A DNA stretch of 64,000 nt from an uncultured Actinomycetes bacterium (lineage in GTDB: Bacteria; Actinomycetota; Acidimicrobiia; Acidimicrobiales; RAAP-2). Both the position numbers and the translations under genes were made by a program. Below, one piece after another: positions 8,403 to 17,411 of the stretch. The DNA is taken from contig CAIJYV010000022.1 in NCBI GenBank assembly GCA_903825035.1, positions 62,001 through 126,000 of the forward strand, read 5' to 3'. Within the stretch, counting starts at the first letter, position 1; every line of letters starts with the position of its first letter. Under the pieces are notes generated by a model. The model had not been told where the DNA came from, ran no database searches, and saw only the letters and a program-made list of their open reading frames with translations.

Positions 8403-8408
8403 TAAATT
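8403..8408 (+). promoter_or_regulatory. -10 element candidate (TAAATT) of first surface protein
   Basis: TAAATT lies 7 nt before the GTG start codon at 8416, and no Shine-Dalgarno is visible, so the transcript may be leaderless. No clear -35 is seen. Confidence 0.4.
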
Positions 8409-8415
8409 AAGAGTC

Positions 8416-10218
8416 GTGAAAAATCAAATTTCAATTGGACGGCTTTTTTCGGTTCCCCTCGTTGCGCTCTTAATTGCGGTGAACGGATTCGTATTGCTGG
8501 GCACTCCCGCTACCGCGACTGGAACGGTGACCACCTACAGCCAATCGGCGGTGATCAATCCACCCCCCGCAGGGAGTTTCACTGGCTCAGCGGGTGGCGA
8601 CGCGTGGAGTGTCAGCTTGTCGCGTACAAATGTTTACATGGTCTTCCACGGCGCCAATCTGACCCTCATGTGTCGCGTTCAGGCAACGGCAGCTAGTTGC
8701 CCAGGATTTACGGTGCCAGCTCTTGTTACCGATGGGAACGGCGGAACATTCAAAGTCGGCGCATCGCCAAAGAGCTGGATTGATGATGCGAATCAAAAGC
8801 TCTATATTTTTGCCACCCAAGCTTCGAATACTCAAAGCGGAGTCGTGTGTGTGGACCTTTCCAACCCCGCTTCGCTATATTGCGGTTTCACTCCACTCGC
8901 CGCTGCCGGCGATGCGTCGACGGATACCTTTGGCGGCATTTCAGTTCCTGTTCAAGTTGGAACCAAGTGGTACGCATTTAACACGGTTTCTGGAGTAACG
9001 ACCGGCCAGAAGAATTCACTTATGTGTTTCGATATGGCAACCATGGCGGCTTGCTCAGGTGAGCCATACGCCATTGATTACGGAATCACCGCTATGCCAT
9101 CTTCGGTCTATTACAACCCTGGCGTATTGGCTTTGGGGGCCAAAATCATTGTGTCGGCGACGGGCTCCGATTCCGTGGCCAAAACTTCCTGTTTTGACAC
9201 TGTTACTCAGGCTGAATGTGCCGGAAACTTTCCCTTTACAGCGCCAACAGGTGCATCAGGCACTCCTTACCCCACGCTTGACTCGTCGGGCACCTACACC
9301 GGCTTTTGCTACTACGTCTCGACTCCGGCCTGCTTCGACTTAACAGGCGCTTCGGTTGCCGCACCTACCGGAATGGCGAGCATCCTGAGTCCGATTTACT
9401 TTGTAAACGGCAACGGGTATGTCGTCCTTGGAACTCACTTGTATGTGCCGTATAACACTGGTCTTTCTGTCAAATGCTTCGATTTCGCTTCGAATAGCGG
9501 CTGTGCCAACTTCCCTCACGTCATGACGAATATGAACCTCTTCTATTCGGTTAATTTCGACCCGTTTGAGCCCACTTGCCTTTGGGCGGCGGCCGATAAT
9601 GGCTCGCAACAGATTCAGAGCTTCGATGCGTACACGGGCGGACTCTGCGGCTCGTCGGGAATCATTGTTCCGTTGAGCACATTTGTCAACCCTGATCCGG
9701 TGTGTCAACCTGCTACCTACTCGTCTTTGACCATCACTGATCCCGCACCGAGTGCCTACACGGGCGGAACTGTTCAGTTCCTTGACTCATCTGGAAACCC
9801 AATTTCGTCCATCGCAACACAACCAATTGACTCGACTGGAAGTGTCGATCTGAGTTCGCTAGGTCTCGAATCGCAACTGGCGTTGCCGCAAGTCAAGATC
9901 GAGCTTCCCGGCGCCCCAGCGGGTACGGTTTCGGTTTCGGTGTCATGGACCGCAACATACGACACGGCTTGCACCACGAACGGTCAAATTGCCGTTGACC
10001 CAAGTACCGTGACCACAACTACAACCACAACCGCGCCAACCACGACAACAACCGCTCCGGGGGCAACCACCACCACGACTGCACCAACCACGACCACTAC
10101 ACAGCCCCTTGCCTTTACTGGCTCGAATACCCGTCAAAACGCCCTTGTAGCCATTGACTTGTTGGGCGGGGGCCTCGTGGCCATGCTTTTCGTGCGCAGA
10201 CGCAAAGTACTGAAATAG
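8416..10218 (+). CDS. Secreted repeat protein with LAFTG wall-anchoring signal (copy 1)
   Basis: The 600-residue product has an N-terminal signal peptide (MKNQISIGRLF, hydrophobic run, TPATA cleavage region near residue 34). A body follows with recurring paired-Cys units of the form C-aromatic/V-D-x(4-8)-C, for example CVDLSNPASLYC, CFDMATMAAC, CFDTVTQAEC and CFDFASNSGC, possibly blades of a beta-propeller. Next come an Ig-like stretch near residue 430, a Thr-rich linker (about residues 533-563), LAFTG at 565-569, a transmembrane helix and RRRK. LAXTG is the class E sortase motif, so covalent wall attachment is likely. I start at GTG 8416 rather than an upstream frame-open codon inside the SDR gene, because the paralogue starts in the same way (GTG-AAA-AA). 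Function is unknown. Confidence 0.85.
   Translation: MKNQISIGRLFSVPLVALLIAVNGFVLLGTPATATGTVTTYSQSAVINPPPAGSFTGSAGGDAWSVSLSRTNVYMVFHGANLTLMCRVQATAASCPGFTVPALVTDGNGGTFKVGASPKSWIDDANQKLYIFATQASNTQSGVVCVDLSNPASLYCGFTPLAAAGDASTDTFGGISVPVQVGTKWYAFNTVSGVTTGQKNSLMCFDMATMAACSGEPYAIDYGITAMPSSVYYNPGVLALGAKIIVSATGSDSVAKTSCFDTVTQAECAGNFPFTAPTGASGTPYPTLDSSGTYTGFCYYVSTPACFDLTGASVAAPTGMASILSPIYFVNGNGYVVLGTHLYVPYNTGLSVKCFDFASNSGCANFPHVMTNMNLFYSVNFDPFEPTCLWAAADNGSQQIQSFDAYTGGLCGSSGIIVPLSTFVNPDPVCQPATYSSLTITDPAPSAYTGGTVQFLDSSGNPISSIATQPIDSTGSVDLSSLGLESQLALPQVKIELPGAPAGTVSVSVSWTATYDTACTTNGQIAVDPSTVTTTTTTTAPTTTTTAPGATTTTTAPTTTTTQPLAFTGSNTRQNALVAIDLLGGGLVAMLFVRRRKVLK
10012..10104 (+). repeat. Thr-codon low-complexity tract (copy 1)
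   Basis: Runs of ACN codons with occasional GCN/CCN encode the Thr-rich wall-spanning linker just before LAFTG. The near-repetitive DNA could vary in length by slippage. Confidence 0.85.
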
Positions 10219-10223
10219 TCCAC

Positions 10224-10259
10224 ATCATCCCCCGGCAACGATTGCCGGGGGATGATTTT
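10224..10259 (+). terminator. Rho-independent terminator after surface protein copy 1
   Basis: A perfect 15-bp stem (10224-10238 with 10242-10256) closes a CGA loop and is followed by TTT. It lies 5 nt after the stop codon and separates the two paralogues into independent transcription units. Confidence 0.85.
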
Positions 10260-10310
10260 GGATTCGACCATTTCCTTTCGGTGAAACCGAGAAGAGTAAA
10301 GCCACCCAAG

Positions 10311-10316
10311 TAGAAT
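10311..10316 (+). promoter_or_regulatory. -10 element candidate (TAGAAT) of second surface protein
   Basis: TAGAAT is placed 6 nt before GTG 10323, with no Shine-Dalgarno in between. This indicates a leaderless transcript and supports the chosen start. Confidence 0.5.
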
Positions 10317-10322
10317 TTGGGC

Positions 10323-12182
10323 GTGAAAAAAATCTACACCTTGAATCGGTTCTTGGGGATAGTAGCGGTCGTACTGCTCCTCGTTTCTAACGCAGTCGCT
10401 TTTTCCGGCAATGCCGCTCAGGCCACCGGAAACGTCACTTCGTATACTCAATCCGCAGTGATTACGCCACCGCCGGCCTCAAGCTTCGCGGGTGCCGCGG
10501 GTGGAGATGGTTGGGGAGTATCTTTCACGCAGGACAAGATTTACAACATCTTTCACCACAACAGTTATGTTTCAATCAACTGTCACATTCAAGCAACGGC
10601 GGCCATTTGCCCCAGCTTCCCATTGCGCGTGCGCGATTCCAACAATATTGACTACGACTCGACCGGCTCGCCCTCGATGTGGATCGACCAAGCTAACCAA
10701 AAGCTCTATACCTACGCAACCTATCCAGTTACCAACCAAGCTGGCGTTCTCTGTATTGACATCGCAAATCCGGGCACACCAAACTGTGGTTTTACCGCGC
10801 TCACCGCCGCTGGAGATTCCCTGCCTTCGCCATCACCGTTCATCTTCTCAATGGTTTCACCAGCGATGTTTGTCGGAACAAAGTGGTATGCCTTCAACTA
10901 CTACACCACTAATGCGCCAACCGGAACGCAAGACACTTTGATGTGTTTCGACACGGCTACCTTGGCGGCGTGTCCCAGTCAGCCCTACTCCTTTGATTTA
11001 GGAACCACCAACATCGCCCTTATGAAGCCACCGAATGGTTCCATTGCCTTTGGAACAAAGATGTTCTTTCAGACGATGACAAGCACGACGACCGGTTTTG
11101 TCTCTTGCTACGACACCGCCACTAACGCTGAGTGTGCCGGAAACTATCCGTTCGCTGAAACCTTGGACAGCGTGAGTGCGTACGCGCCAGCGCCATTCCC
11201 AATCTTGGACAACACCGGCGCTTACGTTGGCTACTGCATCACTGGCGCCACATTCAACTGCTACGACATGACTGGCAACACGATGTCTCCTCCGTCGGGA
11301 TTCCAAGCAGCTATGCCAGCGCACGACCAGGCCTGGGCTGGAAACGGCTACGTAATTCTCGGCACTCGTCTATACGTACCTGATCACACAATTTGGACCA
11401 TGTCTTCGCAGGGGCAAGTTGATTGTTACGACTTCTCAGCACAAGCCGGATGTGCGAACTATCCGCTAACGATGGCCAATCAAAACGGAACCTATACCGT
11501 GAATTTTGACCCGTTCTACCCGACTTGCTTGTGGGTGAATGCGGACTCCGGATCCGCACAAATTCAGAGTTTCGATGCGTATACGACTGGCGCTTGTGGC
11601 TCATCGGGAACAATCGTTCCTTTGAGCACCTTTGTAAATACCGATCCAACCTGCATGCCCGCAACATACACCTCGCTGACCGTGACAGACCCAGCGCCTT
11701 CTGCGTACTCGGGTGGCACTGTTCAGTTCCTCGACTCTTCCGGGAATCCAATCGTTGGCATCCCAACCCAAGACATCAATGCCACAACTGGCAGTGTCGA
11801 TCTCACTTCGCTCGGACTTGAATCTCAGCTTGCCCTGCCGCAAGCCAAAATTTCTTTGCCAGGGGCTCCGGCAGGAAACGTGACTATTTCGATGGCGTGG
11901 ACGGCAACTTATGACTCGGCCTGCACGACGAATGGCCAAACGGCGGTAGATCCAAACACCACGACAACCACCACGACAACCACCACAACCACCACAACGA
12001 CTTCGACAACCACCACCGTGGCATCAACGACCACAACAACAGCTCCAGCGACCACCACTACGACACAGCCCCTTGCGTTTACCGGTTCGAATACCCGTCA
12101 AAACGCCATGGTTGCGGTGGACATGTTGGCCGGTGGATTCGTGGCGATGCTGTTCGTTCGCCGCCGTAAGTCACACAGTTAA
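10323..12182 (+). CDS. Secreted repeat protein with LAFTG wall-anchoring signal (copy 2)
   Basis: This 619-residue paralogue of the preceding gene has the same architecture: signal peptide, paired-Cys repeat units (CIDIANPGTPNC, CFDTATLAAC, CYDTATNAEC, CYDFSAQAGC), an Ig-like domain with the shared LTVTDPAPSAYSGGTVQFLD segment, a Thr-rich linker, LAFTG at about 584-588, a membrane helix and RRRK. The C-terminal halves are much closer to each other than the N-terminal halves, as expected for a tandem duplication with divergence in the exposed region. It is probably anchored to the wall by a class E-type sortase, which is not in this window. I prefer GTG 10323 over TTG 10317, because -10-like TAGAAT lies 6 nt upstream. 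The ligand or role is unknown. Confidence 0.85.
   Translation: MKKIYTLNRFLGIVAVVLLLVSNAVAFSGNAAQATGNVTSYTQSAVITPPPASSFAGAAGGDGWGVSFTQDKIYNIFHHNSYVSINCHIQATAAICPSFPLRVRDSNNIDYDSTGSPSMWIDQANQKLYTYATYPVTNQAGVLCIDIANPGTPNCGFTALTAAGDSLPSPSPFIFSMVSPAMFVGTKWYAFNYYTTNAPTGTQDTLMCFDTATLAACPSQPYSFDLGTTNIALMKPPNGSIAFGTKMFFQTMTSTTTGFVSCYDTATNAECAGNYPFAETLDSVSAYAPAPFPILDNTGAYVGYCITGATFNCYDMTGNTMSPPSGFQAAMPAHDQAWAGNGYVILGTRLYVPDHTIWTMSSQGQVDCYDFSAQAGCANYPLTMANQNGTYTVNFDPFYPTCLWVNADSGSAQIQSFDAYTTGACGSSGTIVPLSTFVNTDPTCMPATYTSLTVTDPAPSAYSGGTVQFLDSSGNPIVGIPTQDINATTGSVDLTSLGLESQLALPQAKISLPGAPAGNVTISMAWTATYDSACTTNGQTAVDPNTTTTTTTTTTTTTTTSTTTTVASTTTTTAPATTTTTQPLAFTGSNTRQNAMVAVDMLAGGFVAMLFVRRRKSHS
11957..12066 (+). 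repeat. Thr-codon low-complexity tract (copy 2)
   Basis: ACN-codon repeats encode the Thr-rich linker of the second surface protein. The tract is slightly longer than that of copy 1, so length has changed since duplication. Confidence 0.85.
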
Positions 12183-12187
12183 TTGCG

Positions 12188-12233
12188 TTTCCACGCTCGG
12201 CCAGTGGTCGGGCGTGGAAATTCCCAACTTTTT
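12188..12233 (+). terminator. Terminator after surface protein copy 2
   Basis: A 15-bp stem with two G-U-type mismatches (12188-12202 with 12206-12220) closes an AGT loop. A T-rich stretch follows at 12229-12233. It lies 5 nt after the stop and before the ilvD promoter. Confidence 0.65.
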
Positions 12234-12248
12234 AACAGTCCCCGCTCG

Positions 12249-12254
12249 TAGAAT
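12249..12254 (+). promoter_or_regulatory. -10 element candidate (TAGAAT) of ilvD
   Basis: TAGAAT sits exactly 6 nt before the ilvD ATG at 12261, with no Shine-Dalgarno, so ilvD is probably transcribed as a leaderless mRNA. Confidence 0.55.
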
Positions 12255-12260
12255 GAACCT

Positions 12261-13940
12261 ATGAGCCAGCACCCCACGCCACGATCGACCGATGTCACTT
12301 TGGGCAAGGGGAGAGCTCCCGCTCGAGCAATGCTTCGAGCGATGGGTCTACAAGACGCCGACATGGCAAAGCCACAAATTGGCGTGGCATCGAGTTGGAA
12401 TGAGGTCACTCCTTGCAACCTGCCCCTCGAGCGACTCGCGAAGCGCGCCAAGGTAGCGGTGAGAGATGGTGGTGGGGTTCCATTTGAATTTGTCACTATT
12501 GCTGTGTCGGACGGCATCTCTATGGGGCACGAAGGAATGCGAGCGTCACTGGTGTCGCGTGAAGTGATTGCCGACTCGGTCGAAACCGTTATGCACGCTG
12601 AGCGTTTCGACGCCATGGTGACCTTCGCTGGTTGCGACAAGTCGCTCCCAGGAATGCTGATGGCCGCAGCGCGCCTCGACGTGCCCAGCGTATTCCTCTA
12701 CGGAGGAACGATCATGCCGGGGAATCTAAATGGAGAAGCGCTCGACATCACTTCAGTCTTTGAGGCGGTGGGGGCGAACGCCGTGGGAAAGATCAGTGAT
12801 GAAGAGTTGAAAGCCATTGAGTGCGCCGCTTGTCCTGGGGAAGGTAGTTGCGCTGGCATGTTCACCGCCAACACCATGGCGAGTGTTGGTGAGGCACTTG
12901 GCATGTCGCTATTGGGCTCAGCTTCAGCGCCCGCGATTGATGGACGACGTGACGAGTACGCCTACCAGTCTGGGCAAGCCGTTCTAAATCTCTTAGATTT
13001 GGGAATCACCGCGCGCAAGATCATGACCAAGCAGGCATTAGAAAATGCCATTGCGGTTGTTATGGCCCTCGGTGGTTCAACGAATGCCGTACTGCACCTG
13101 TTGGCGATTGCCCACGAGGCACGTGTCGAGCTCGAACTAGACGACTTCAACAAAATCGCCAAACGCGTTCCGCACATTGCTGACACAAAGCCCCACGGCA
13201 AGTATCACATGAGCGATCTGGACCGCATTGGTGGAGTCCCAGTTGTTCTGAGCCACCTCTTAGAAGCAGGGCTCCTCCACGGAGATGTCATGACGGTTTC
13301 GGGAAAGACCATGGCAGAAAATCTTGCCGAATTCAACGCGCCCGCTCCCGATGGAGACGTGGTCCATCCTCTCTCGAACCCAATTAACGCCCAAGGTGGA
13401 ATCGCCGTCTTGAGTGGATCGCTGGCGCCAAAAGGATCAGTGGTCAAGGTGGCGGGGATCGATAAATTGCAATTCACCGGAGCTGCACGCGTTTTTGACG
13501 GCGAGGACGCGGCCATGACAGCGATCATGGCCAACGAAATTCAGCCCAACACAGTGGTGGTGATCCGCTACGAGGGACCCAAGGCGGGGCCAGGCATGCG
13601 CGAGATGTTGGCAGTAACGGGCGCCATGAAGGGTGTTGGACGCGGGGCCGACTGTGCGCTGATTACCGATGGTCGTTTCAGCGGCGGCACCCATGGTTTC
13701 TGTGTTGGACACGTCGCTCCTGAAGCGCTGGACGGCGGACCAATCGGCCTCATTGAAGATGGTGACACCATCGCCATTGATGTTGAGGCTCTGAGCATCG
13801 ACCTCTTGGTTGAACCCGCCGAACTCGAAGCCCGTCGCGCCCGACAAAAGCCATTTATTCCTCGCTACACCACGGGGGTCTTGGACAAGTTTGCCCGCCT
13901 CGTGCAGGGAGCCGAGAAGGGCGCCGTTACCTCTCGTTAA
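12261..13940 (+). CDS. ilvD: Dihydroxy-acid dehydratase
   Basis: IlvD dehydrates 2,3-dihydroxy-isovalerate and 2,3-dihydroxy-3-methylvalerate to the 2-oxo acids that lead to valine, leucine and isoleucine. The 559-residue length is normal. Fe-S ligands are visible in [10 protein letters not shown] and in [19 protein letters not shown], and the C-terminal [14 protein letters not shown] segment is conserved. It precedes the ilvBNC attenuator region. No Shine-Dalgarno precedes the ATG, and a TAGAAT -10 box lies 6 nt upstream. Its Fe-S cluster would depend on the SUF system encoded further along. Confidence 0.96.
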
Positions 13941-13944
13941 TAAG

Positions 13945-13974
13945 TTGTCCCTGAGAGACACGGTGTGGCACAAT
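13945..13974 (+). promoter_or_regulatory. Promoter candidate for the ilvBNC leader
   Basis: TTGTCC (13945-13950) and CACAAT (13969-13974) are separated by 18 nt. The predicted transcription start is about 6-7 nt downstream, which falls on the GTG of the leader peptide at 13981, so the leader would be translated from a leaderless mRNA. Confidence 0.55.
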
Positions 13975-13980
13975 ACAGGG

Positions 13981-14031
13981 GTGAAGATAAACCTAACTGT
14001 GGTGGTAGTGCTAGGCGCGTGGCGCCGGTAA
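13981..14031 (+). CDS. ilv leader peptide (attenuator control ORF)
   Basis: A 16-codon ORF, MKINLTVVVVLGAWRR, carries four consecutive Val codons flanked by two Leu codons and one Ile codon, the expected control codons of a branched-chain amino acid attenuator. It ends 23 nt before a strong intrinsic terminator that precedes ilvB. Charged tRNA-Val/Leu/Ile should allow fast translation and termination, while scarcity should stall the ribosome and permit read-through. The GTG start coincides with the predicted transcription start. Confidence 0.85.
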   Translation: MKINLTVVVVLGAWRR

Positions 14032-14054
14032 TTCGACCCATCTCGTCGTACCGG
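14025..14054 (+). promoter_or_regulatory. Hairpin between leader stop and terminator
   Basis: CCGGTA (14025-14030) pairs with TACCGG (14049-14054), and CGAC (14034-14037) with GTCG (14045-14048), across a small bulge. It overlaps the last leader codons and abuts the terminator, so it is a likely ribosome-controlled alternative structure. I could not resolve the antiterminator pairing by eye. Confidence 0.5.
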
Positions 14055-14081
14055 AGCCTCCCAAAATAGGGAGGCTTTTTT
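14055..14081 (+). terminator. Attenuator terminator upstream of ilvB
   Basis: A 7-bp GC-rich stem (GCCTCCC 14056-14062, GGGAGGC 14069-14075) with a 6-nt loop AAAATA is followed by six T residues. An extra A-T pair (14055/14076) extends the stem. This is a textbook intrinsic terminator between leader peptide and structural gene. Confidence 0.88.
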
Positions 14082-14106
14082 GTTTATCTGAGTGAAAGGA
14101 CAGGTT

Positions 14107-15819
14107 GTGAAACTTACCGGCGCACAAGCCCTCATCAAGAGCCTCGAGCAAGAGGGTGTGGAGATCATCTTTGGTCTCCCCGGCGGAGCTATCCTGCCCG
14201 TTTACGACCCAATCCGAGATTCATCAATCCGACACGTACTAGTTCGCCACGAACAAGGTGCAGGACACATGGCCGAAGGTTACGCCCTCGCTACCGGTAA
14301 ACCGGGCGTGGCCATGGTGACCAGTGGGCCTGGAGCTACCAACATCGTTACTCCCATTGCCAACGCGCACATGGATTCCACGCCACTAGTGGTTATCACC
14401 GGTCAGGTGGCATCGGCCTCTATCGGTACCGATGCCTTCCAGGAGTGCGACATCACCGGCATCACCATGGGTATTACTAAGCACAACTTCTTGATCACCC
14501 ACGCCGATGAGATTCCACGAGTTGTCGCCTCCGCCTTCTATATCGCCACCACCGGACGTCCCGGACCGGTTCTGATTGACTTTCCGAAAGATATCGCTCA
14601 GTCTGAGATGGAGTGGTGGTACCCCGAGTCAATCGAAGAGTACGACCTCTTGGGCTACAAGCCCGAAATAATTCTCGATCAGTCGAGCATTGACGAAGCT
14701 GTAGCACTGATCAGCCAAGCCGAACGTCCCGTTCTGTACGTTGGCGGCGGTACCTTGAAATCCAACGCCTCCCAGCAACTCATCGCTTTCGCCGAACGGA
14801 CCAAGATGCCCGTGGTGACCACCCTGATGGCTCGCGGAGCATTCCCCGATAGCCACCCGCAGCACCTTGGCATGCCCGGGATGCACGGAACCTATTCGGC
14901 TGTGACCGCTATCCAAAAGTCGGACCTCCTGATTTCGCTCGGTGCGCGCTTCGACGACCGTGTCACCGGGAAAATCTCAGCCTTCGCGGCCGGAGCAAAG
15001 ATCATTCACGTTGATATCGACCCCGCAGAATTCAATAAGGTCAAGGTGGCCACCGTCGCCGTTCGTAGCGATATCGCTACTGCCTTGGCCGCCTTCGATG
15101 CGGCGAAGGCCATGCCGAAGAACCTCGATCCATGGTGGGAGGTCCTCACTGGATGGCGCGAAAAATACCCTTTGGTATACGCCCCAACCGATGATCCCGC
15201 ATTGTTGCGTCCCCAAGAAATCATCGAAGCAATCGCCGCAGCCTCGAAACCAGGAACAATTGTTTCTTCGGGTGTAGGGCAACACCAAATGTGGGCCAGT
15301 CACTTTTGGAAGTTTGAAGAACCCCGCACTTGGATCAACTCGGGTGGAGCCGGAACGATGGGTTTCGGTGTGCCTGCCGCCATTGGCGCCAAAGCCGCCA
15401 TGCCCGACCGCGACGTGTGGTGCATCGACGGTGATGGGTGCTTTCAGATGACCGCGCAAGAGATCGTTACCGCAACCTCGGAGGGATTCCCAATCAAGGT
15501 CGCGATTTTGAACAATGCTTACCTCGGTATGGTCCGTCAGTGGCAAGAGATGTTTTACGAAGAGCGATTCTCCGAAGTTTTCTTAGACGCTGATCTGCCG
15601 GACTATGTGAAGTGGGCCGAGTCCATGGGTGCGGTTGGACTGCGTGCGCGCACAATTGAAGAGATGCACGAAGCGATTCGCCAAGCGAACGAAATCAACG
15701 ACCGGACTGTCGTCATTGACTTCCGCACGCCCGCATCGGAGAAGGTATTTCCGATGGTGGCCGCGGGAGCGTCCAATGATGACATCATGGTCCACCCATT
15801 GCAGGAGGTGAAAAACTAA
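14107..15819 (+). CDS. ilvB: Acetolactate synthase large (catalytic) subunit
   Basis: IlvB is the ThDP-dependent catalytic subunit that makes acetolactate or acetohydroxybutyrate. The product is 570 residues from GTG 14107. I prefer this to GTG 14092 because AAAGGA lies 6 nt upstream and MKLTGAQALIKSLEQEGVE is a normal N-terminus. Motifs are the catalytic Glu region (LVRHEQGAGHMAEGYA), the SGPGATN loop and the ThDP-binding GDGCFQMTAQE...NNAYLGMVRQWQ. It lies behind the leader-peptide attenuator and overlaps ilvN by one base (TAATG). LeuA, IlvC and IlvD of the same pathway are in the window. Confidence 0.96.
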   Translation: MKLTGAQALIKSLEQEGVEIIFGLPGGAILPVYDPIRDSSIRHVLVRHEQGAGHMAEGYALATGKPGVAMVTSGPGATNIVTPIANAHMDSTPLVVITGQVASASIGTDAFQECDITGITMGITKHNFLITHADEIPRVVASAFYIATTGRPGPVLIDFPKDIAQSEMEWWYPESIEEYDLLGYKPEIILDQSSIDEAVALISQAERPVLYVGGGTLKSNASQQLIAFAERTKMPVVTTLMARGAFPDSHPQHLGMPGMHGTYSAVTAIQKSDLLISLGARFDDRVTGKISAFAAGAKIIHVDIDPAEFNKVKVATVAVRSDIATALAAFDAAKAMPKNLDPWWEVLTGWREKYPLVYAPTDDPALLRPQEIIEAIAAASKPGTIVSSGVGQHQMWASHFWKFEEPRTWINSGGAGTMGFGVPAAIGAKAAMPDRDVWCIDGDGCFQMTAQEIVTATSEGFPIKVAILNNAYLGMVRQWQEMFYEERFSEVFLDADLPDYVKWAESMGAVGLRARTIEEMHEAIRQANEINDRTVVIDFRTPASEKVFPMVAAGASNDDIMVHPLQEVKN

Positions 15820-16358
15820 TGGCGCCAGAACCCTTTTTAGGTGACGTAGAACGCACTCCCGTTACCCACCACATTCTTTCGGTGTTGGTTGAGAACAAGG
15901 CCGGAGTGCTGGCCCGCATTGCTGGACTCTTTGCCCGTCGGGGCTTCAACATTTACTCCTTGGCGGTAGCCCCCTCAGAAGGTCAAGCTCGTTTCTCACG
16001 CGTCACAATCGTGGTGGACGCCGAGTCGGCCCCACTGGAGCAGATTGTGGGCCAGTTGAACAAGTTGATCAACGTGGTTGAAATCAAGGACATTGCTCCC
16101 AAGGATGCGCTGGAGCGTGAACTCCTACTTGCCACCGTGTCGGTCGATAACGAGAACCGGGGCCGAGTATTGGGCTTGGTAGAGAGCGCTGGCGCTTCCA
16201 TTGTGGACGTTGACGCGGATTCGCTGACTCTCATGCTGGCCGGGACGCCCCGGGCTTGTGACGAGCTCGAGCGTTCTCTGGAAGGATTTGCCGAGGTGGA
16301 GTTGCACCGAACTGGCCGAGTGGCATTACCTAGACTTACCAAGAGCGAAGAAAACTAA
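15819..16358 (+). CDS. ilvN: Acetolactate synthase small (regulatory) subunit
   Basis: This 179-residue regulatory subunit confers valine feedback inhibition and stimulates IlvB. The N-terminal ACT domain is clear (ILSVLVENKAGVLARIAGLFARRGFNI, split around residues 14-40), followed by the SmALS C-terminal domain. It overlaps the ilvB stop by one base, which supports stoichiometric translation. ilvC follows 15 nt later. Confidence 0.95.
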   Translation: MAPEPFLGDVERTPVTHHILSVLVENKAGVLARIAGLFARRGFNIYSLAVAPSEGQARFSRVTIVVDAESAPLEQIVGQLNKLINVVEIKDIAPKDALERELLLATVSVDNENRGRVLGLVESAGASIVDVDADSLTLMLAGTPRACDELERSLEGFAEVELHRTGRVALPRLTKSEEN

Positions 16359-16373
16359 GGAATAGGAAAAACT

Positions 16374-17411
16374 ATGACCAAGATGTTCTACAAAGAAGAT
16401 GCCAAAACCGAGTTCTTGAAGAACAAGAAAATCGCCATTTTGGGATACGGCTCACAGGGCCACGCTCACGCACTCAACTTGCACGAGTCGGGCTACGACG
16501 TACGCGTTGGGCTTCGCGCTGGTTCATCCTCGATTGCCAAGGCCCAACAGGCTGGCCTACACGTCACGACTATGGCCGAGGCCTGTGCCGAGGCTGACGT
16601 GATCATGATGCTCGTTCCCGACACCGATCAAAAGAAGACCTACGACGAGGCGGTGGCACCTCACCTCAGCGCCGGGAAGTGTCTCTTGTTCGCGCACGGC
16701 TTCAACATTCGCTTTGGTCTTATTAACCCACCCGCTGACGTTGATGTTGCGATGGTTGCCCCCAAGGGACCGGGGCACTTGGTTCGTCGCACCTACAAAG
16801 AGGGAGGCGGAGTTCCCGCTCTGATTGCAGTGCATCACGACGCCACTGGTAACGCGCACAACATTGCCCTGGCCTACGCCGACGGTATTGGTGCCACCCG
16901 GGCTGGAGTGTTGGAGACAACCTTCACCGAAGAGACGGAAACGGACCTCTTTGGTGAGCAGGCTGTGCTCTGTGGTGGCGTTTCGGCCCTTGTGAAGGCC
17001 GGCTACGAAACGTTGGTAGAGGCTGGCTATCAGCCCGAGAGTGCGTACTTCGAGTGCCTGCACGAACTGAAGCTCATTGTTGACTTGATGTACGAAGAGG
17101 GTATTACCGGAATGCGCTTCAGTGTCTCAGACACTGCTGAGTACGGTGACCTTACTCGTGGTTCACGCGTAATTACCGAATCGGTAAAACACGAGATGAA
17201 GCAAATCCTGACCGAGATTCAAGATGGCACCTTTGCCAATGAGTGGATCAAGGAAAACGAAATTGGGCGTCCTCGCTACCACGAACTTCGTGAAGCGGGC
17301 AAGAAGCACCCGATCGAAGAGATTGGTAAGAAGTTGCGCGCCATGATGCCCTTCGTATCAGCGGGTAAGCAAAAAGTCGCTGAAGTTTCTGGTGGCGACA
17401 CCGACGAATAA
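16374..17411 (+). CDS. ilvC: Ketol-acid reductoisomerase
   Basis: IlvC isomerises and reduces acetolactate to dihydroxyisovalerate with NAD(P)H and Mg2+. The 345-residue class I enzyme shows the Rossmann motif [13 protein letters not shown], the [14 protein letters not shown] strand and the metal-binding C-terminal domain with [12 protein letters not shown] and [25 protein letters not shown] Shine-Dalgarno precedes the ATG. It is the last gene of ilvBNC; its stop is 9 nt from the convergent serC stop. Confidence 0.96.

Follow-up and report, generated by a model that had tools for sequence, protein, structure and literature searches.

Tandem LAFTG-bearing proteins with a predicted cysteine-rich seven-bladed propeller head in an uncultured Acidimicrobiia bacterium

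The ectodomain of the plant receptor kinase CRINKLY4 is a surface-exposed seven-bladed propeller with a regular cysteine pair in each repeat, and these pairs have been proposed to form stabilising disulfides (PMC4617170). The described substrates of class E sortases, such as the chaplins of Streptomyces and the SrtE-dependent proteins of Actinoplanes, carry a LAXTG motif, a transmembrane segment and a positively charged tail and are accompanied by a class E-type sortase. To our knowledge, little is known about surface display in streamlined Acidimicrobiia. We analyzed a 64,000-nt stretch of DNA (hereafter, the window; contig CAIJYV010000022.1, positions 62,001 to 126,000) from an uncultured member of this class, a small and probably freshwater actinobacterium. 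Two genes in the window, A and B, encode paralogous proteins with a predicted propeller head and a C-terminal LAFTG sorting signal, and we consider it reasonably probable that these are sortase-displayed binding heads (adhesins or receptors) in which one face of a disulfide-braced scaffold has diversified. The two genes are organized as follows.

8416..10218, + strand: gene A, 600-aa (amino-acid) propeller protein with a predicted LAFTG anchor and a GTG start (open reading frame and sequence)
8416..8520, + strand: putative signal peptide of A, to ...ATATG (sequence, with a predicted cleavage site)
8521..9669, + strand: predicted seven-bladed propeller of A, 14 Cys (alignment to modelled B)
9670..9972, + strand: small beta domain of A, bracketed by the last Cys pair
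9973..10107, + strand: linker of A, mostly Thr-rich
10108..10215, + strand: sorting signal of A, comprising LAFTG (10108-10122), a hydrophobic segment and RRRK
10323..12182, + strand: gene B, 619-aa propeller protein with a predicted LAFTG anchor and a GTG start (open reading frame and sequence)
10323..10427, + strand: putative signal peptide of B (sequence, with a predicted cleavage site)
10428..11618, + strand: predicted seven-bladed propeller of B, 14 Cys (AlphaFold2 and structure comparison)
11619..11924, + strand: small beta domain of B, bracketed by the last Cys pair (no confident fold match)
11925..12071, + strand: linker of B, mostly Thr-rich
12072..12179, + strand: sorting signal of B, comprising LAFTG (12072-12086), a hydrophobic segment and RRRK

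The initial annotation had described A and B as tandem LAFTG paralogues, and this description held: both open reading frames lie at the positions it gave, align from end to end with 55-58% amino-acid identity and all 16 cysteines in the same register (16/16), and continue through a Thr-rich linker into LAFTG, a hydrophobic stretch and RRRK. When the ectodomain of B was submitted to AlphaFold2 with an alignment of the window and fetched relatives, the resulting model had a predicted local distance difference test score (pLDDT) of 85.7 and a predicted template modelling score of 0.84. Foldseek and a DALI-like aligner assigned model residues 15 to approximately 390 to the seven-bladed propeller class, and both the predicted model and the fold search showed the circular array of four-stranded blades that defines a seven-bladed beta-propeller. 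The top structural match was E. coli YncE (3vgz; Z 22.5, root-mean-square deviation 4.1, approximately 290 residues aligned), followed by Lp49 (3bws; Z 22.1), WDR91 and WDR5 (Z approximately 20), and many WD40 propellers. The head of A and B is therefore predicted to be a seven-bladed beta-propeller, as the initial annotation had guessed in proposing a disulfide-stabilized propeller. Its suggestion of an Ig-like domain was not confirmed. Folded alone, the tail domain of approximately 110 residues reached a pLDDT of 86.5, although its best structural match had a Z of only 5.1, with nucleoplasmin, FlgD and FN3-like entries mixed; by sequence, Pfam Big_1 appeared weakly (E 0.04) in a single relative. 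We thus call it a small beta domain and assign it to no fold family.

Sequence comparison placed neither protein in a described family. A and B gave no match above the cut-off in Pfam, NCBIfam or PDB, did not reach the curated cut-offs of the named propeller and repeat families (WD40, RCC1, NHL, PQQ and Kelch), and had no match in PHROGs. No Pfam family was common to the 29 aligned relatives, a profile of the family retrieved nothing convincing from PDB, and our literature searches found no described family for the head, in agreement with the initial annotation, which could not place the repeat unit in a named family.

Cysteine was present in all 29 rows of the family alignment at 14 of the 16 columns and in 28 of 29 at the other two, which correspond to the predicted pair of blade 2; this pair is missing jointly in one relative (L069) and likewise in a paralogue encoded by the same genome as A and B (L005). 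On the basis of predicted strands and spacing, five of the seven propeller pairs were placed across the c-d hairpin, and the pair B444/B534 appears to bracket the tail domain. The pairs are predicted to form disulfides. The first b-c loop, in blade 1, opens with two histidines (B78/B79, corresponding to H43/H44 of the model) that were also conserved (H43 in 29/29 rows and H44 in 27/29). The rest of this loop is variable; the pair is an exception on a variable face and a candidate contact site.

A signal peptide together with a C-terminal LAXTG, a hydrophobic segment and a positively charged tail marks both proteins as candidate class E substrates. Two sortases above the Pfam cut-off are encoded in the same genome. 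One, on contig C23 (L001), matched the class E model NF033747 best of all sortase classes (E 2.7e-42); the other, on contig C21, matched class F best (162 vs 166 bits). Aligned to SrtE1 of S. coelicolor (5cuw), the class E-like enzyme retains the GHY tyrosine, which by its spacing to the active-site His is Tyr229, a residue tied to recognition of the Ala in LAXTG (PMC5148588). Other likely substrates in this genome have LAFTG (L037), LAHTG (L008, L070 and L073) and LAATG (L073/L075) tails. Of 99 genomes in the genus, only 12 encode a class E sortase, among them all three with a sortase-anchored propeller (G000, G105 and G171); calculated by hand and ignoring relatedness, the chance of this 3/3 co-occurrence is approximately 0.0014. 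Three further genomes (G143, G151 and G154) contain propeller copies with an OmpA-type tail and no class E sortase; the G151 copy has an OmpA Pfam match, and the G143 and G154 copies share its last residues. The interpretation of LAXTG as a class E signal thus found a matching enzyme in the genome, and neither of the outcomes that the initial annotation had set against itself, a lack of any sortase or a match to a secreted enzyme family, occurred. We infer from these sequence features that A and B are covalently attached to the wall by the class E-like sortase. At L002 (contig C21, 1480-3132, - strand), the class F-like sortase adjoins an ice-binding-like protein (PF11999, E 6e-61) that ends in a Thr/Gly-rich stretch, a hydrophobic segment and RYRR, possibly a second sortase-cargo pair in this small actinobacterial genome.

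The similarity of A and B was unevenly distributed. Identity was 42-50% across the four N-terminal blocks of the body, whereas from blade 7 through the anchor it was 73-82% (blade 7 region, 73%; last beta domain, 80%; Thr linker, 82%; anchor, 74%), bearing out the earlier remark that the C-terminal halves are more alike. The two are sisters in the tree (support 99/96), which indicates a duplication within this lineage. Nonsynonymous divergence (dN) between them reached 0.53 over blades 1-6, compared with 0.17 for the tail domain, and synonymous divergence (dS) was saturated in both. Recent gene conversion was rejected as the reason why the C-terminal halves resemble each other: at identical codons in these halves, third-position identity was 0.38-0.57, near the random expectation of 0.39, and dS was 3.0 in blade 7 as well as being saturated on either side of it. 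Because mean identity across the family was 0.38 in the tail domain and 0.40-0.41 in the propeller, the contrast between tail and propeller is particular to A and B. The proposal that exposed regions diverge faster therefore stands for this pair, where divergence falls mainly in the loops on a single face of the propeller, and fails as a general rule of the family.

In canonical propeller topology, the b-c and d-a loops lie on one side and the a-b and c-d loops on the opposite side. Identity between A and B was 0.27 in the former and 0.60 in the latter, the strongest contrast among 406 pairs (rank 1). The b-c/d-a face was also more variable across the family: identity was 0.30 compared with 0.39, a difference that had this sign in 363 of 406 pairs, entropy was 2.15 compared with 1.80 bits (p approximately 0.001), and loop length varied more. 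A pair of slowly diverging orthologues (L048/L053) showed no face bias (0.77 vs 0.75, rank 381/406).

Comparison of two related genomes, G151 (L061) and G143 (L062), suggested how heads may change. Their propeller loci are orthologous, with both flanks 96-97% identical, and the genomes have a median identity of 96.6% over alignable 500-bp windows in 100 kb. Identity fell to 61-86% from the upstream spacer through the end of the propeller, and the head was the longest and lowest-identity stretch among the aligned windows (66-85%). The dS of the head was 0.7-1.0, whereas that of the stalk was mostly 0.03-0.5, with a second, milder dip in the FN3 part. A raised head dS points to replacement by a diverged allele and not to selection on the resident one. 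Elsewhere in G151 (contig C31, approximately 62500-77500), approximately 15 kb had no match in the compared G143 stretch, although the surrounding DNA was 95-96% identical; this may be a mobile element or island. We discounted what looks like a 3.4-kb deletion removing both heads in the related genome G160 (L025/L078). At L078 (contig C28, approximately 12060-16495), identity to the window switches from approximately 75% to 99.6% at the A/B locus, and a signal peptide is fused to the stalk with a stop at codon 8. Such a pattern could reflect deletion plus transfer or an assembly chimera; the latter is likely, because identity to the window is 99.6% in the right part of the contig but 72-79% for G160 over the 20 kb tested, and because another contig carries the downstream region again, in a native-looking copy.

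Relatives of the head were found in 24 of 172 genomes of the taxonomic family. The named matches are mostly metagenome-assembled genomes (MAGs) of Acidimicrobiia; others come from Nocardioides szechwanensis, from Planosporangium thailandense, whose head is followed by an LALTG tail, and from a few MAGs that carry the label Pseudomonadota or Dormiibacterota. The head, approximately 500 residues long, is constant in size and cysteine pattern, whereas the tails vary and include LAXTG/LPXTG signals, FN3 domains alone or combined with OmpA, DUF11, IPTL-CTERM and GIFSFGDAxFYGS-type repeats. In the genome that carries A and B, one paralogue of 954 aa ends in LAFTG and another of 667 aa (L005; contig C29, 1144-3147, - strand) has an OmpA tail. 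The OmpA-family C-terminal domain (PF00691) occurs on the secreted actinobacterial propeller proteins L005 and L061 (5974-10227), where it apparently anchors the protein to the wall in place of a sortase signal. Several relatives (L044, L046, L058, L060 and similar) end in repeats of approximately 40 aa, 'GGYWLVASDGGIFSFGDAxFYGS'; the one such tail scanned, that of L044, had no Pfam match.

Taken as a binding head, each protein would be exported and fold into a seven-bladed propeller in which disulfides, roughly one in each blade, pin the hairpins, while the eighth pair would bracket the tail domain. The small beta domain and the Thr-rich linker would raise the propeller off the wall, and the class E-like sortase would link the protein covalently to peptidoglycan through LAFTG. 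The propeller would act as an adhesin, a receptor or a means of glycan or protein capture; its strands and disulfide-pinned face would be constrained, and the loops of the opposite face would hold specificity. These loops would have diverged after duplication, perhaps under selection, giving each of the two paralogues a face of its own, and relatives would exchange the head as a cassette on a conserved stalk. Several points count against this interpretation. The cysteine pairs of blade 5 (B305/B313) and blade 7 (B402/B425) lie outside the standard c-d position, and the class E-like sortase, at 145 bits, falls just under the NCBIfam class E cut-off of 160. The faces were taken from canonical topology and predicted strands, not from coordinates, and the family-wide bias is modest. 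In propellers generally, the b-c and d-a loops are often the longer ones and drift faster even when selection is absent; for A and B, the saturated dS precludes a measure of selection. Head replacement was observed in a single genome pair, at a locus other than A/B.

An unlikely alternative is that long surface loops have simply drifted and that A and B are redundant wall proteins with a structural role and no particular ligand. The higher entropy and loop length of one face across the family and the saturated dS would fit such neutral divergence, but the unbiased orthologues L048/L053 do not; moreover, the elevated dS of the G151/G143 head requires a diverged allele rather than drift, and the tail domains of A and B are far more alike (0.79) than the family mean. 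It is less probable again that A and B are wall-anchored enzymes (a hydrolase, lyase or redox protein) in which the blade-1 His pair and conserved Asp residues form a catalytic or metal site. Conservation of these histidines in an otherwise variable loop would agree with this idea, as would the presence of sialidases, polysaccharide lyases and tetrathionate hydrolase among the Foldseek matches; however, such matches are generic to the propeller fold, the non-enzymatic YncE and WD40 propellers rank higher in structural alignment, and neither Pfam, NCBIfam nor PDB gave a sequence match. We give marginally less weight still to the notion that the proteins are phage receptors or grazing-avoidance antigens whose diversity is driven by escape. 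Their exposed position and cassette-like replacement speak for it, but tblastn of the head against phages and plasmids (50,697 phage records) and an alignment-based scan of viral contigs found no relatives, and escape does not explain the retention of 16 cysteines and two histidines. A displayed binding head thus remains our preferred reading of A and B.

The two genes are neighbours on the + strand, flanked by an SDR gene and ilvD, and have the following candidate expression signals.

8403..8408, + strand: TAAATT, possible -10 box for a leaderless transcript of A (sequence only)
10311..10316, + strand: TAGAAT, possible -10 box for a leaderless transcript of B (sequence only)
10224..10256, + strand: hairpin 3' of A, a perfect stem of 15 pairs followed by TTT, possible terminator
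12188..12220, + strand: hairpin 3' of B, 88% complementary

TANNNT boxes lie 6-7 nt upstream of the starts of A, B and ilvD (the last at approximately 12249-12254), as leaderless transcripts would show. The gap between the upstream gene and the start of A is 31 nt, and a sigma-70 scan found no promoter at the box sites before A and B. Of the promoter and terminator that had been assigned to each copy, a hairpin does follow each gene, although only that of A reached a terminator score, and terminator-like sites in the region were not more numerous than by chance; separate promoters were not confirmed beyond the boxes.

These findings provide a widespread, unnamed head domain with a predicted fold, a cysteine signature, a likely anchoring route and a prediction of its binding loops. 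If the head is exchanged among close relatives, it would be a candidate for a variable trait met by phages, grazers or partner cells. More tentatively, Acidimicrobiia may possess a modular display system in which a disulfide-braced propeller with a one-sided hypervariable binding face is combined with interchangeable anchors (class E sortase, OmpA-type and others) and in which recombination generates diversity by replacing the head while the stalk stays conserved. Compared with the known systems, A and B share the seven-bladed fold of YncE-type and WD40-like propellers, including Lp49 (Z approximately 22), but only 11-12% sequence identity, and differ from them in their 14 conserved propeller-region cysteines and their sortase anchor. 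Unlike the chaplins and other class E substrates, which are amphipathic or hydrophobic morphogenetic proteins, they carry a large propeller as cargo. CRINKLY4 has the motif C(x10)CWG in RCC1-like repeats, whereas A and B have C-[FY]-D-x(5-8)-C and no RCC1 Pfam match, and its propeller belongs to a receptor kinase and not to a wall-anchored protein; the resemblance between them is likely to be convergent.

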